In this document: one piece after another, positions 14,885 to 21,825 of the stretch
Position numbering within the stretch: the first letter of the stretch is position 1
Layout of the letters: each line of letters starts with the position of its first letter
The notes under the pieces: generated by a model
Database searches by the model: none
What the model was told of the DNA's origin: nothing
What the model saw: only the letters and a program-made list of their open reading frames with translations
Program-made: the position numbers and the translations under genes
NCBI GenBank assembly: GCA_026400835.1
Contig: JAPLOA010000091.1
Location: forward strand, 1-64,000
Length of the DNA: 64,000 nucleotides
From: Planctomycetales bacterium
GTDB lineage: Bacteria > Planctomycetota > Planctomycetia > Planctomycetales > Planctomycetaceae
Direction of reading: 5' to 3'

Positions 14885-17800
14885 ATGAGGCTGACGGAAA
14901 TCGATATCGACCGTTTTCGAATCTGGCGAAGTCTGCTGCTGCGCCTGGATCCGAAGGGCCTGAACGTCATCTACGGTCCAAACGAAGCCGGCAAGACAAC
15001 GTTGATGCGGTTCATTCGCTCAACGCTGTACGGCTACGAACCGTTATCAACGGAGCCCGCGTGGCATCGGCCGGATGCTGAACAGCCATGGCGTGGTGCG
15101 TTACGATGTGAACACGGCGGTCGAACCTGGCGAATTCATCGGCGAGCGGAATTCGAAGGACGCGGCAAGCTTCGTTTATCCGGCGGCCCGGAAGGGATCG
15201 ACAAAGAACAAGCCGTTTCCAATCTGTTGTCCGGAACCAGCGAAGAAGTTTACACCGACATCTTTGCGGTGGGTGTTCGTGAACTACAGCAGTTGGCGAC
15301 GCTCGGCACGAATCAGGTGGCCGAGTATATCTACGGACTTTCTCTGGGACATCAGGGTCGGCAGATTCTGGATGCTCTTGGGGATGTGCGCGAACGTCGT
15401 GCCTTGATGTTCGGAGAGGACAATCGTTCGGGCAGGATTCCGCAACTTTTCGATCGCTATGCCAAACTCTCCGCCGGACGTAAGAACACCGGTGTTGCGC
15501 GAGATAAGCACGCCAAGCTGACGCGCCGCCGTCGTGAACTGACAACAGAGATTGATGAGTTGCAGCAGCGCGAAGATGCAATCCGCAACGAACTTCGCGG
15601 CCTGCGATTTCTGCAGACCTGCCATAAGCCATGGAAACGAATTCGTGAGTTGCAGGAAGAACTGGCGAAGCTGCCGGTCATCCCGACGAATCCAACAGAG
15701 GCTCTGAAACAGTTCGCGACGGCTGAGAAAGACTTCCAGGAAGCCAGCAGCCGACGCGACAAGCTGAATGAACAGTCGGCTCAGTTTCGAGGCCAGGCTG
15801 AACGCATCCAGATGGATCAGCAGTTCGATAAAGAACGCTATGCGATCCAAAGTCTGGTCGATCAGGCGGACTGGCTGCGACAGATTGAGGAACAGATTCG
15901 CACGGCTGAAGATCGCTCGTCTGAACTCCGGCGAGAACTCAATCATCAGCTCACACAGATGGGCCCCGGCTGGAGTATTGACCGCCTGAATGCTGTTGAT
16001 ACTTCTCCTGCCGCCCACAACAAATTGCTGGAAGCCGCAAGGAAGTATCATGATGCTCTGCAGCGACGCGGGAAACTGCGTCGCTGGAATCGCAGCATGA
16101 CCAAACGCAGCCAGAAGGAGCTGGTCGAGCTGAATGCCCAGCTGGATGAAGTCGGCATGCCGGTGAATGAAGCCATCGAGATGGAGCAGGCTCGGCTGAA
16201 GGAACTTGAAAATCTTGGCCGCCTGCGACTTCAGGAAGAACAACTCGCGCTGAAAATCCAGACCGTGCGACGCGTAATTGATCGTGTGGATTTGAACGAA
16301 TCAATTCCCGAGTGGGTCGACAAGACGATCACGACGATGGGCTGGATCGGGGCCGCGTTGTGTGTCTTCGGGATGGCGACGTTTTCTTTGGGCGGAGAGG
16401 CCCAGCGTTCACTGGGTGGAGCACTGGCCGCTGCAGCGTTTGGTTTTGCCGGCATCATGTGGTGGGGCGTGCGTAACGGCCTGCGAAACAATTTCGACGC
16501 GACCGTCGGAGTGAAGCTCGACGACATCGCTGACGAAGCGCGCCAGGCCGATCGCCAGCTGAGATTGCTGCAGGATCGTATCCAGAGGATGGCGATTGCA
16601 GATCGTTACAGTAAAAATCACGCAGAGAATGCGGATAACTGGAAATCATCAACGGCCGAAATGGTCGATCGCATCGGCGATTGCTCGCAACGCATTGCCG
16701 AGCTGGAAGTATTACAGAAAAAACAGATGCGAGCTGCCGCACGGCGGATGCGTCTGAAGATGCTGCGAGATCGCTTCCGGGGTGCTCAGCAGGATTTGAA
16801 CGTCCAGCGACAGGAATGGTGTCGTTTGCTGACTCAGGTTGGCATGGATGAGACTATTCACGTCGAACAGGCCTTCGACTGGTGGCGCAAGATTCAGGAT
16901 GTTCGTGAACTGCTGACACAATGGCGAAACTCCGCGCCGGAAGTTGAAGGCCTGCGTCGCATGTTTGAAGCGATGCGGTTGCGAGTGGAACAATTGGGTG
17001 GCCGACTGCCAAACGCCAGGAAGATGAACTTCGTGCGTCCCCTGGAGGTTCTTACCGCGTGGCAGTTGCAGTTGAAATCACACGAACGCGATCGATCGGA
17101 GAAGGAACGTCTTGTCAACGACGCCGATACTCGTCAGCGAGATGGAATTCATGCTCAGCACCAGATGGAAGCCGCTGAACTGCGCCGCAGCGCGATTCTG
17201 GCTCGATCCGGAGTGGCATCTCGAGAAGAGCTCGTTCGTCAGCAGGAAGTCGAAACTCGTCGAGTACAGCTTGAGAATCAACTCAAGAAAGCCAACGATG
17301 AACTGAGTGACGCTGCGTCGGCTGAGACCGAACTGGCGATCGTGGAAGATGATTTGTTTCGCTTCGATCCTCCCCGTGCGAAAGAAACCATCCAGATTCG
17401 CACGGCGGAACTGACAGAAGTCGAGCAGAAGTTGAATCGGAATCATGAAGAACTCGGCAGCCTGAAGCAGGAAATTCGGCTTCTGGAGTCTGGCCGGGAT
17501 TCGCACGAAGAATTCTTCCGTAAGTCGCAGTTGGCGTCAGAAATCTACCGCGCGAGTGAGGAATGGTTCTCGCTGCAGATTGAGCACGAAGCCGTGATTC
17601 AGATCCGTCGGCGATTCGAGCAGGAGAATATCTCAGGCACGCTGATTACCGCGTCGCAATACATGCACCGCATGACATCCGGACGGTATCACCGCATTTG
17701 GGCTCCGCTGGGTGAAGACTATCTGTGTATTGATGATGAGTACGGCCAGACGTTTCGTGTCGAACAGCTCAGCGGGGGAACTCGTGAGCAATTGTTCCTC

Positions 17801-18190
17801 TCAATCCGCTTTGCTCTCGTAAGAGAATTCGCACGACGCGGCGTTGAGCTGCCGCTGGTGATGGACGACCTGTTCGTCAACTTCGACCAGGAACGTACCG
17901 AAGCCGCCGCTGATTGTCTTCTGGATGTTGCCAGGGATGGTCAGCAGGTTCTGTTCTTTACCTGCCACGAGCACATTGCACATCTGTTTCAGAAAAAGAA
18001 TGTCGAGCCGCTCTGGCTGCCGGGGCACAAAGTGGCCTTTGACACCATGAAGCCAGACATCGAAGATCATTCTCAATCATCGTCCGGCGAAGCCGACACA
18101 AACAGTGCCGACTTCGTTGCGAACTCAGATGAACTGCTCGACGAACGCTTTGAAACATCCGCCGACGGAGATCCTGCCAGCGCGATCTGA
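14885..18190 (+). CDS. SbcC/YhaN-like coiled-coil ATPase
   Basis: A 1101-residue SMC/Rad50-type ATPase. An N-terminal P-loop YGPNEAGKTTLMRFIR (Walker A at about 31-39) is followed by long coiled coil (about 165-470). Two adjacent hydrophobic segments near residues 484-530 (MGWIGAALCVFGMATFSLGG and ALAAAAFGFAGIMWWGV) are followed by more coiled coil. The C-terminal ABC half has the signature QLSGGTREQLFLSIR (from about 961) and Walker B ELPLVMDDLFVNFD (Asp994/Asp995). A hydrophobic hinge in mid-coil is typical of the YhaN branch rather than of SbcC with its zinc hook. It is coupled downstream of the SbcD/YhaO-like gene. In Bacillus the yhaO-yhaN pair is linked to DNA repair. Here the partner phosphoesterase looks inactive, so a structural or signalling role of the pair is possible. 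Confidence 0.88.
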   Translation: MRLTEIDIDRFRIWRSLLLRLDPKGLNVIYGPNEAGKTTLMRFIRSTLYGYEPLSTEPAWHRPDAEQPWRGALRCEHGGRTWRIHRRAEFEGRGKLRLSGGPEGIDKEQAVSNLLSGTSEEVYTDIFAVGVRELQQLATLGTNQVAEYIYGLSLGHQGRQILDALGDVRERRALMFGEDNRSGRIPQLFDRYAKLSAGRKNTGVARDKHAKLTRRRRELTTEIDELQQREDAIRNELRGLRFLQTCHKPWKRIRELQEELAKLPVIPTNPTEALKQFATAEKDFQEASSRRDKLNEQSAQFRGQAERIQMDQQFDKERYAIQSLVDQADWLRQIEEQIRTAEDRSSELRRELNHQLTQMGPGWSIDRLNAVDTSPAAHNKLLEAARKYHDALQRRGKLRRWNRSMTKRSQKELVELNAQLDEVGMPVNEAIEMEQARLKELENLGRLRLQEEQLALKIQTVRRVIDRVDLNESIPEWVDKTITTMGWIGAALCVFGMATFSLGGEAQRSLGGALAAAAFGFAGIMWWGVRNGLRNNFDATVGVKLDDIADEARQADRQLRLLQDRIQRMAIADRYSKNHAENADNWKSSTAEMVDRIGDCSQRIAELEVLQKKQMRAAARRMRLKMLRDRFRGAQQDLNVQRQEWCRLLTQVGMDETIHVEQAFDWWRKIQDVRELLTQWRNSAPEVEGLRRMFEAMRLRVEQLGGRLPNARKMNFVRPLEVLTAWQLQLKSHERDRSEKERLVNDADTRQRDGIHAQHQMEAAELRRSAILARSGVASREELVRQQEVETRRVQLENQLKKANDELSDAASAETELAIVEDDLFRFDPPRAKETIQIRTAELTEVEQKLNRNHEELGSLKQEIRLLESGRDSHEEFFRKSQLASEIYRASEEWFSLQIEHEAVIQIRRRFEQENISGTLITASQYMHRMTSGRYHRIWAPLGEDYLCIDDEYGQTFRVEQLSGGTREQLFLSIRFALVREFARRGVELPLVMDDLFVNFDQERTEAAADCLLDVARDGQQVLFFTCHEHIAHLFQKKNVEPLWLPGHKVAFDTMKPDIEDHSQSSSGEADTNSADFVANSDELLDERFETSADGDPASAI

Positions 18191-18430: not shown

Positions 18431-19954
18431 TTACAAATTGCGTTCCTGGTCGGCCTTATTCAAAGCCTTCAGGTAGGCATGAGCGGCCGCTTCAATGATG
18501 TCGGTACTGATGCTTTTGCCATGGTACTGGCGACCGTTCACATTGATTTTGACGCGAACTTCACCCTGAGCATCCTGACCTTCAGAAACGCTGCGGACGT
18601 CAAATTCTTCCAGCCGAGCCGGGAGTTCAACGATGCGTTCCATGGCTTTGAAGACTGCATCAATCGGGCCGTCGCCAATTGCCGCATCACAACGAACCGG
18701 AAAACCTTCGCACTGCAGTTCCAATGTGGCTGTCGGGATTGCAGACGATCCAGCCGATGTATGGAAGCTGACCAATCGCCAGCGATCCGCAGCATCGGAC
18801 AGCCGATTCTCGATCAACGCAACAATGTCCGAGTCGTATACTTCCTTCTTCTTGTCAGCCAGAGCAATAAAGTCGTCGAACGCTTTCTGCAGTGCCTGAT
18901 CGTCGAGGTTGAATCCTAACTGGACCACTCGATCACGAAACGCGTGGCGTCCGCTGTGTTTGCCGAGCACCAGATTCTGGCCCACATAGCCGACATCTTC
19001 CGGTCGCATGATTTCGTATGTGGATCGTTCCTGCAGCACGCCGTGCTGATGAATACCGGCTTCGTGAGCAAACGCGTTCTGACCCACGATCGCCTTGTTC
19101 CGCTGCACTTTCATGCCGGTAATTGTGGATACCAAATGACTGGTTGGATACAGCCGCTGAGTATTGATCTTCGTATGCACCCCGTAGTAATCCGCTCGGG
19201 TGCGAATTGCCATCACGATCTCTTCGAGCGCGGCGTTGCCAGCCCGTTCACCAAGACCGTTGATCGTGCATTCGATCTGTCGAGCACCAGCTTCCATCGC
19301 GGAGAGACTGTTGGCAACGGCCAATCCCAGGTCATCATGACAATGCGCGCTGATGATGGCCTTGTTGATGTTCGGCACGTTCTTCTTCAGATGCGAAATC
19401 ACTTTGAAGTAGTGATTCGGTGTCGCATAGCCGACGGTGTCCGGGATGTTGACGGTCGTGGCTCCGGCGTCGATTGTTTTCTCAACAACTTCGCAGAGAA
19501 AATCGAGTTCCGTGCGAGCCGCATCTTCGGGCGAAAATTCAATGTCGTCGCAGAACTCTTTGGCTAGCTTCACCGAGCTGATTGCTCGCTCAATGATTTG
19601 TGCCTTATCCATCTTGAGTTTGAATTCGCGATGAATCGCACTCGTGGCGAGAAACACATGGATGCGGCGTTTCTCTGCCGAAACCAGTGCGGCCCTGGCC
19701 TTGGCGATATCGTCTTCACGACTGCGAGCCAGTGCACAGATCGTAGTCCGATCACCGAACCTCGCGGCAATCTGAGAGACGGCTTCAAAGTCGCCCGGAG
19801 AGGCAATCGGGAAGCCGGCTTCAATCACGTCGACACCCAGCTCTACCAGGGCTCGTGCAACTTCCAGCTTTTCCCGAGTATTCATGCTGCAGCCGGGAGA
19901 CTGTTCGCCGTCGCGGAGAGTGGTGTCGAAGATGATGATCTGGTCGCCGGTCAT
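18431..19954 (-). CDS. leuA: 2-isopropylmalate synthase
   Basis: First committed step of leucine synthesis: acetyl-CoA plus 2-ketoisovalerate gives 2-isopropylmalate. The product has 507 residues, with the HMGL-like TIM barrel starting IIFDTTLRDGEQSPGCSMN (substrate and metal site), VNIPDTVGYATP, the metal-binding SAHCHDDLGLAVANSL and NGLGERAGNAALEEIVM. A linker precedes the C-terminal allosteric LeuA dimer domain (ATLELQCEGFPVRCDAAIGD...VRVKINVNGRQYHGKSISTD). Expression is probably controlled by the leucine attenuator located just upstream (20038-20154). Convergent with the YhaN-like gene; the 240 bases between the stops show nothing clear. Confidence 0.97.
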   Translation of the reverse strand: MTGDQIIIFDTTLRDGEQSPGCSMNTREKLEVARALVELGVDVIEAGFPIASPGDFEAVSQIAARFGDRTTICALARSREDDIAKARAALVSAEKRRIHVFLATSAIHREFKLKMDKAQIIERAISSVKLAKEFCDDIEFSPEDAARTELDFLCEVVEKTIDAGATTVNIPDTVGYATPNHYFKVISHLKKNVPNINKAIISAHCHDDLGLAVANSLSAMEAGARQIECTINGLGERAGNAALEEIVMAIRTRADYYGVHTKINTQRLYPTSHLVSTITGMKVQRNKAIVGQNAFAHEAGIHQHGVLQERSTYEIMRPEDVGYVGQNLVLGKHSGRHAFRDRVVQLGFNLDDQALQKAFDDFIALADKKKEVYDSDIVALIENRLSDAADRWRLVSFHTSAGSSAIPTATLELQCEGFPVRCDAAIGDGPIDAVFKAMERIVELPARLEEFDVRSVSEGQDAQGEVRVKINVNGRQYHGKSISTDIIEAAAHAYLKALNKADQERNL

Positions 19955-20037
19955 GGGGCTTTCTCCGTGCGGAGGTCGTCAAAAGGAACAAAGCAGGAGT
20001 TTTGGTCTGAGCATTCAAACCGTCAACTCATGCCAAC

Positions 20038-20100
20038 AAAAAAACCCTGAGGAAGTCCTCAGGGTTCGTAAAGTCTATCAGACTGCATGCGTACCTGAGG
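20038..20100 (-). terminator. leu attenuator: terminator and alternative antiterminator
   Basis: Minus strand. A rho-independent terminator is formed by ACCCTGAGGA and TCCTCAGGGT (20044-20065) followed by seven T (20044-20038), 84 bases before leuA. An upstream segment CCTCAGG (20100-20094) can pair instead with CCTGAGG of the terminator's left arm, giving an antiterminator. The leader peptide coding region contains CCCTGAG, which can pair with the same upstream segment. This is the classical 1:2, 2:3, 3:4 scheme of amino-acid attenuation, with ribosome stalling at Leu codons favouring read-through. Confidence 0.88.
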
Positions 20101-20106
20101 CGGGCT

Positions 20107-20154
20107 TCACGATGGAAGCAGTAGAAGGCTCAGGGTCAGCAGCAGGTTATTCAT
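20107..20154 (-). CDS. leuL: Leucine-rich leader peptide of the leu attenuator
   Basis: A 15-codon frame, MNNLLLTLSLLLLPS then TGA, with 8 leucine codons (three CTG in a row, then CTG, CTT, CTA, CTG, CTT) starting at an ATG 198 bases upstream of leuA. It has no protein function. Its translation senses charged leucyl-tRNA and sets which hairpin forms downstream. Its codons ACC CTG AGC double as segment 1 of the attenuator. No strong Shine-Dalgarno is seen before the ATG. Confidence 0.88.
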   Translation of the reverse strand: MNNLLLTLSLLLLPS

Positions 20155-20436: not shown

Positions 20437-21825
20437 TTGCCACCATCGCAGGAAAACTCACACGAGCGAATCCCGGTCGAGCACAATCCTTACGAGGCCT
20501 TTGATGCGGCCGGTAGCTTTCCGGTCGACTCCAGTACCGTGGCCAGCCGCACGCGATTCAAAGTCCTGGGAGTGCTCTGCCTGCTTTCGGGCATTCTTTA
20601 TCTTGATCGCATCTGCATTTCGGCAGCCGTGGATTCGATCAAAACAGATCTCAGCATCACCAACACCGAAGCCAGCTATTTTCTGATGGCATTTCAACTG
20701 GCTTATGGCTTGTTTGAAATTCCTACAGGCCGCTGGGGCGATCGACTCGGCGCACGCCGCGTGTTGACTCGCATCTCAGTATGGTGGTCTGCCTTCACAG
20801 CCATCACCGGAGCCTGTACCGGCCTGTGGATGATGGTCGTGGTCCGATTTCTATTCGGAGCGGGCGAAGCAGGTGCGTTCCCCAATGTCGCTCGAGTCAT
20901 GGCGCGATGGTTTCCGGATCATGAACGCGGTCGAGCTCAGGGTGTTCTGCTAGCCGCGTCACAAATCGGAGGAGCACTCGCTCCGTTTCTGGCAGCAGTC
21001 TTAATCCAATGGATCGGTTGGCGCTGGACGTTTGTCGCGTTTGGTTCTGTCGGCGGAGTTTGGGCCGCAGGATTCTATTCGTGGTTTCGAGATGACCCGG
21101 CCGAACATCAATCCGCGAACGCCGCTGAGGTTGCTCATATTGGTCGCGGCGCATCGGCCGGCAGCGTGCATTCCGCGATTCCCTGGAACCTCGTTTCTGT
21201 GAATCCCAGCATCTGGTTTCTCAGTTTGATCATGGCCTGCGCTTCATTCAACAGTTACATCTACTTCAACTGGTTTCCCAGTTATCTGAAGGAAGGTCGA
21301 GGTATCGGAGCCACCGAAGCCGGCGCGATGTCGTCAGTGGTTTTGGCTTGTTCCGCTGCGGGAACTCTGTGCGGAGGTTATCTGCTGGATCTGTTTGTGA
21401 CCGGGAAGGGAGTTGGCCGAAAACGTATTCATGGTGGTGCGAGCTTCTTTCTGTCGTCCGTGTTGTTGGGCTGTGGCCTGATGTCTTCCAACGCCTGGCT
21501 GGCCGTGCTCTTCACCGGTGCGTCCTGTTTCGCAACTCAGGCCACTCAGTCTTTGTGGTGGTCCAATGCGATTGGCATCAGTGGAAAACATGTGGGTGCG
21601 TTGTTCGGGCTGATGAATTCCGTTGGCGTCTTCGGAGCTATGAGCTCCACGTATCTGGTTGGAGCCATCGCCGATTCGCTGGGCAGTCAGGGCTACACCG
21701 GCCGCGATCAATGGGATCCTATTTTTTATATCAACATGGGTGTTCTTTGCACGGCAGGCCTGCTGTGGTCGACGTTTATCTACAAGAATGTTGAGTCCGC
21801 GGAACCGCAAAACACAGTCTCTTAG
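20437..21825 (+). CDS. MFS transporter (anion:cation symporter type)
   Basis: A 462-residue major facilitator with 12 predicted membrane segments. The loop 2-3 signature GRWGDRLGARRVLTR (about residues 97-111) and the family-typical LDRICISAA in segment 1 and FGAGEAGAFPNVARVMARWFP in segment 4 place it near the ACS family (hexuronate, glucarate, phthalate-type organic anion symporters). The substrate cannot be told from sequence. The start is TTG at 20437: an AAGGA ribosome site sits 7 bases before it, and no ATG or GTG lies nearby in frame. It stands alone, with a dispersed repeat behind it and an amidohydrolase gene next on the strand, which might act on an imported compound. Confidence 0.88.
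   Translation: MPPSQENSHERIPVEHNPYEAFDAAGSFPVDSSTVASRTRFKVLGVLCLLSGILYLDRICISAAVDSIKTDLSITNTEASYFLMAFQLAYGLFEIPTGRWGDRLGARRVLTRISVWWSAFTAITGACTGLWMMVVVRFLFGAGEAGAFPNVARVMARWFPDHERGRAQGVLLAASQIGGALAPFLAAVLIQWIGWRWTFVAFGSVGGVWAAGFYSWFRDDPAEHQSANAAEVAHIGRGASAGSVHSAIPWNLVSVNPSIWFLSLIMACASFNSYIYFNWFPSYLKEGRGIGATEAGAMSSVVLACSAAGTLCGGYLLDLFVTGKGVGRKRIHGGASFFLSSVLLGCGLMSSNAWLAVLFTGASCFATQATQSLWWSNAIGISGKHVGALFGLMNSVGVFGAMSSTYLVGAIADSLGSQGYTGRDQWDPIFYINMGVLCTAGLLWSTFIYKNVESAEPQNTVS

Follow-up and report, generated by a model that had tools for sequence, protein, structure and literature searches.

The leuA gene in the 64,000-nt stretch of planctomycete DNA analysed here (the window) is very probably controlled by a ribosome-mediated, leucine-sensing transcription attenuator of the classical kind. 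This reading builds on the anatomy of the element, its conservation in relatives, compensatory changes in its pairing, the codon bias of its leader and an amino acid choice that is specific to the gene downstream. Ribosome-mediated attenuation as such is already known. New here are its occurrence in this phylum, where nearly every leuA of the class has it, the matched Leu and Ile leaders of two paralogous enzymes, and what this means for transcription–translation coupling in Gemmata. No planctomycete amino-acid attenuator was found in the literature searched, which took in few subscription journals, and the 2010 survey by Lopatovskaya and colleagues could contain one.

Anatomy of the leuA leader

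All four segments of the classical model, proposed in an earlier reading of the letters alone (the sequence-only reading), are found on the minus strand upstream of leuA (Table 1). The leader frame lies where that reading had placed it, with the codons ATG AAT AAC CTG CTG CTG ACC CTG AGC CTT CTA CTG CTT CCA TCG TGA, and is followed by AGCCCG, segment 2, a spacer and the terminator. The latter, whose position ahead of leuA also stands, is composed of GAACCCTGAGG-ACTT-CCTCAGGGTTT, forming 11 pairs when A–T pairs are counted, or of GAACCCTGAGG-ACTT-CCTCAGGGTTTTTTT when the T tract is included, with its end at 20038. The T7 tract ends 83 bases and the leader lies 150 nt upstream of the leuA start at 19954. 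Segments 1 and 2 can form 6 bp (CCUGAG/CUCAGG), while the alternative pairing CCTCAGG/CCTGAGG between segments 2 and 3, already suggested by the sequence-only reading, comprises 7 bp, and its two strands covary across genera. Two features speak against an attenuator: a clear Shine-Dalgarno sequence is absent before the leader frame in the window, and no sigma-70 promoter was called for the leader.

The description of leuA as a lone gene is borne out by its neighbours: the downstream open reading frame (ORF; 14885..18190, plus strand) is convergent and the upstream one (20437..21825, plus strand) is divergent, so that the terminator can serve leuA alone. A second LeuA-like protein is encoded elsewhere in the window's genome (L002, G000:C52:155788-156843); it is 44% identical to the window's LeuA and scores under every curated cut-off.

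Table 1 Coordinates of the leuA attenuator in the window and of the related cimA element in the same genome.
Feature	Position	Strand	Description
Leader peptide ORF	20154..20107	-	Encodes MNNLLLTLSLLLLPS, 8 Leu codons of 15; DNA ATGAATAACCTGCTGCTGACCCTGAGCCTTCTACTGCTTCCATCGTGA
Segment 1 (CCUGAG, codons 7-9)	20129..20134	-	Able to pair with segment 2; from the fold without ribosome
Segment 2 (CCUCAGG), antiterminator strand	20094..20100	-	9-15 nt past the first base of the stop codon
Segment 3 (CCUGAGG)	20057..20063	-	5' arm of the terminator and partner of segment 2
Intrinsic terminator hairpin GAACCCTGAGGACTTCCTCAGGGTTT	20042..20067	-	Conserved in relatives, with a changed loop
T7 tract of the terminator	20038..20044	-	Read in the sequence
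GGAG, probable leuA Shine-Dalgarno	19963..19966	-	Predicted from the sequence
leuA, 2-isopropylmalate synthase, 507 aa	18431..19954	-	TIGR00973, 736.5 bits against a cut-off of 598.7
cimA attenuator, window's genome	G000:C65:43523-43640	-	Loci L003, L311; relatives L284-L333

Conservation, covariation and codon bias

The Leu-rich frame is conserved in relatives, a point on which the sequence-only reading had staked its case. An alignment of 12 leaders (11 from the window's genus and 1 from a neighbouring genus) contains exactly 15 codons in each, from an ATG start to a TGA stop, with Leu 4, 8, 10, 11 and 13 and Pro 14 invariant. The Leu codons vary synonymously, with the sole exception of Leu 8, which sits in segment 1 and keeps the single codon CTG in all 12. 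Conservation is limited to the leader, segment 2 and the terminator, and the flanks are unalignable, even directly before leuA.

Across genera, segments 2 and 3 change together. Most other Pirellulaceae have a leader end of the form ...GGTCTTAG, then G, and a terminator arm CCTGAGACC, with segment 2 overlapping the stop codon and pairing with segment 3. Both strands are altered jointly in other groups, giving GGGTGTTAGGG with CCCTAAGG and GGTTCCAGG with CCTGGAACC. When one sequence was taken from each of 51 genera, the duplex energy of a genus's own 2:3 pairing was -19.5 kcal/mol, as against -15.3 kcal/mol with the segment 3 of another genus. None of 20,000 permutations across genera matched the genera's own pairing, and the same test gave 1/20,000 in Pirellulaceae, 0/20,000 in Gemmataceae and 0/20,000 in the other classes; the kinship of the sequences makes these counts optimistic, although the effect holds within families. 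The position of segment 2 varies from family to family.

Rare codons of the regulatory amino acid are a known trait of attenuator leaders, the enteric leu leader among them. In 28 planctomycete leaders, CUA accounts for 27 of the 233 Leu codons, as against 5 of 997 in the downstream leuA genes (odds ratio 26, Fisher p 7e-16, likewise optimistic given kinship). CUU is similarly enriched among the Leu codons of the leaders.

Competition of structures and proposed mechanism

The leader folds 3.3 standard deviations better than shuffled sequences. The competition between its structures was evaluated by masking those parts that a ribosome would mask. As long as the 3' arm of the terminator has not yet been made, the probability of 2:3 pairing is ~0.93 with the ribosome in the Leu run and only 0.65 without a ribosome, because the 1:2 pairing then competes. 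With the ribosome at the stop codon, it drops to 0.48 when 12 nt downstream are masked and remains at 0.93 when the mask covers only 9 nt. As soon as the 3' arm exists, the terminator is the most stable structure in every ribosome state; since it is thermodynamically favoured in the finished RNA, the switch would have to depend on kinetics, like that of attenuators already described. The pairing of an upstream segment with the leader codons, the remaining element of the sequence-only reading, was retained in part: the 6-bp pairing of segments 1 and 2 is seen in the fold of the window, and its support, including the invariance of the Leu-8 codon within segment 1, comes from inside the genus only.

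From the sequence we infer that the leader is translated, that transcription can terminate within it and that the outcome responds to leucine, with the following kinetics. RNA polymerase would transcribe the leader while a ribosome behind it translates the 15-codon peptide. With ample charged Leu-tRNA, the ribosome should pass the eight Leu codons and reach the UGA, where its downstream edge would cover much of segment 2 (two thirds on average in the genus), leaving segments 3 and 4 to pair and transcription to stop at T7 ahead of leuA. With scarce Leu-tRNA, the ribosome would stall in the Leu run and segment 2 would be free as it is made, so that it could pair with segment 3, prevent the terminator from forming and allow leuA to be transcribed. 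If the leader were not translated at all, the 1:2 pairing would be expected to favour termination.

Distribution across planctomycetes

The sequence-only reading had proposed a search for the same leader before other planctomycete leuA genes; the arrangement proved near universal in the class, and the window is no isolated case. To count as positive, a region needed a frame in which 12 codons included 5 Leu or more and, no further than 100 nt beyond it, a terminator. In the class, 43 of the 51 leuA upstream regions were positive and 8 failed these strict criteria. A second sample from the wider phylum, made up of 8 further genomes of the window's family and 32 of other classes, gave 19 positives among 40 regions. 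Chance rates were drawn from window pieces, reverse strands and control genes. A Leu-rich ORF with a terminator occurred in 0/91 leuA upstream regions read as reverse complements and in 0/66 upstream regions of ilvB, leuC and trpE from the same genomes. Of 300 stretches of 450 nt drawn at random from the window, which may include the element itself, 3 passed the screen. The distance from terminator to leuA ranges from ~30 to 310 nt in relatives and is not conserved.

Six loci from other planctomycete classes (L082, L083, L084, L087, L092 and L149) have a Leu-rich leader at leuA and no recognised terminator; at these loci control may be exerted on translation or rely on a different kind of terminator. 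Outside the planctomycetes, a Leu-rich leader with a terminator at leuA was seen, among the matches listed, in Verrucomicrobia (L141, L148 and L181) and Deltaproteobacteria (L150 and L164), and may therefore have an earlier origin or several independent ones.

A sister element with isoleucine leaders at cimA

A covariance model was built from the 12 leuA leaders, with no cimA sequence among them, and searched over 79 related genomes. It recovered the leuA leader in 13 genomes (E 1e-13 to 1e-36), and its recurrent second target was a stretch upstream of cimA with Ile-rich leaders. This gene encodes citramalate synthase (TIGR00977, 703.7 bits), the isoleucine-pathway paralogue of leuA. As the model contained no cimA sequence, its recovery of the Ile leaders constitutes an independent test of the mechanism. 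In the window's genome, the cimA leader is the Ile-rich MSFSIISIQIIGLGGLMTARPPLYA, with a segment 2 (GCCTGAGG) lying over the stop codon and a terminator (GCCCTCAGGACACCCTGAGGGT) after which come six further T; the leaders of relatives read MFQSIHIIIAICIGGIFAVQAVMYA and similar. The element shares its layout, terminator and segment-2 motif with that of leuA and differs in its Ile-rich leader and in the gene that follows. Segments 2 and 3 covary at cimA as well (0/20,000 permutations, again optimistic given kinship).

The amino acid of the leader was then scored by requiring at least 5 of one residue in a stretch of 12 ahead of a terminator. Among leuA regions of the class this was reached by Leu in 51/65 and by Ile in 0/65, whereas among cimA regions it was reached by Ile in 16/50 and by Leu in 2/50; with a threshold of at least 4, Ile reached it in 27/50. 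On this sequence evidence, the leader amino acid follows the pathway of the downstream gene, Leu at leuA and Ile at cimA, and the pair on paralogous enzymes thus forms a natural experiment in which the leader tracks the pathway. Planctomycetes would thereby have ready-made control elements responsive to amino acids.

The cimA leaders of three Gemmata-like genomes (G047, G056 and G038; loci L317, L307 and L310) carry a mix of Ile and Val, e.g. AILVTASAVIGAVVIITTG, and perhaps both amino acids are sensed there. Weak secondary matches of the model that lack a leader (G000:C72, G023:C160 and G019:C108 among them) were rejected as plain terminators. Leaders of the attenuator kind were not recognisable at ilvB, leuC, trpE or hisG of the same genomes, and the ilvD upstream regions yielded only one weak, unconvincing match. 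Upstream of trpE, loci of the window's genus (L272-L277) share a conserved short frame (MTLLAWWQGTDHELESTRPILDRITQSVRIL...) with two adjacent Trp codons and no recognised terminator; the frame may encode a small protein or be the tail of an adjacent gene.

Alternative explanations and known systems

Leader-peptide attenuation, the interpretation offered by the sequence-only reading, remains the best one, the conserved frame being joined by the 2:3 covariation, the CUA enrichment and the Ile leader of cimA. The Leu-rich ORF might instead act on translation, with stalling exposing or hiding the leuA start, or with reinitiation after the leader raising leuA output, the hairpin being a mere stabiliser of the RNA. 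Planctomycetes have an excess of short leader genes near gene starts that has been ascribed to reinitiation (PMC4833913), and the actinobacterial LEU element ties the Shine-Dalgarno of leuA to a Leu leader (PMC1262725). However, the leader studied here lies 150 nt from leuA, a distance that is not conserved, and the flank is unalignable as far as leuA. Moreover, the hairpin nearly always carries a T tract, and changes in its 5' arm go together with changes in segment 2, which makes an action on translation very unlikely. It is exceedingly improbable that the leader binds a protein or metabolite, as a T-box, a riboswitch or the target of an RNA-binding protein would, and that the ORF is incidental. 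T-boxes and riboswitches are indeed built on the same plan, with a structured leader and a terminator, but conservation tracks the codons and the reading frame, and the amino acid of that frame fits the downstream pathway at both leuA and cimA. Nor was any Rfam family (amino-acid operon leaders, T-box and riboswitches included) matched at its cut-off in the window or in ten related loci; a similarity to NsiR1 in the window (21.5 bits, below the cut-off of 39) was rejected as resemblance between terminators. The last alternative is chance, an ordinary terminator that happens to stand beside a random Leu-rich ORF where divergent promoters lie. Short frames rich in Leu are not unusual, and a few random pieces of the window do pass the screen, but the presence of the element at nearly every leuA of the class, its absence from both sets of control regions and the covariation refute chance, leaving it a practically negligible probability.

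Among known systems, the enteric gammaproteobacterial leuL attenuator of leuABCD has a Leu-rich leader with the rare codon CUA, a terminator before leuA, an antiterminator and the segment order 1-2-3-4. The planctomycete element has all of these in common with it; it differs in belonging to another phylum, in preceding a lone leuA rather than leuABCD and in having a leader of just 15 codons. The actinobacterial attenuators and the LEU element resemble it in that leuA is preceded by a leader ORF containing a Leu-codon run (PMC1262725). The LEU element forms a pseudoknot with the Shine-Dalgarno of leuA and lacks a classical terminator (PMC1262725), whereas the planctomycete element has a terminator and an antiterminator far from leuA. 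A pseudoknot of the LEU type is unlikely here because of the length of the interval between leader and leuA and because the intervening sequence is unalignable.

Geometry in Gemmataceae and transcription–translation coupling

Classical attenuation requires the ribosome to be within a few tens of nucleotides of RNA polymerase. In the window's genus, segment 2 starts 3-9 nt past the first base of the stop codon and overlaps the stretch that a ribosome at this codon would cover, and in the other Pirellulaceae, where it mostly overlaps the stop codon itself, it lies inside the footprint of the terminating ribosome in 22/22 (mean 96% of bases). In Gemmata-like genera it is found ~20-31 nt before the stop, right after the Leu run and beyond the usual stop-codon footprint, which counts against the reading. 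A ribosome that has reached the stop would there leave segment 2 uncovered and occupy the RNA between it and segment 3, and would presumably still block the pairing of the two sterically.

A spatial separation of transcription from translation has been reported for Gemmata obscuriglobus, according to the account of Gottshall 2014 given in PMC6212462, and this is disputed. As attenuators need the two processes to be coupled, the leuA element bears on that dispute. With a looser screen, 29 of the 30 sampled Gemmataceae leuA regions were positive, of which at least one (L214) is unconvincing by eye, and the reverse-strand control gave 1 positive; the sample was assigned to Gemmataceae because the leader peptide of G347 is that of a Limnoglobus record (L106). 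This suggests, on the evidence of sequence, that at least leuA is transcribed and translated together in these organisms, and the element offers a simple test of coupling. We consider it somewhat probable that leuA and cimA are each under their own ribosome-read attenuator across Planctomycetota and that the position of segment 2 within the ORF in Gemmataceae implies tight coupling.
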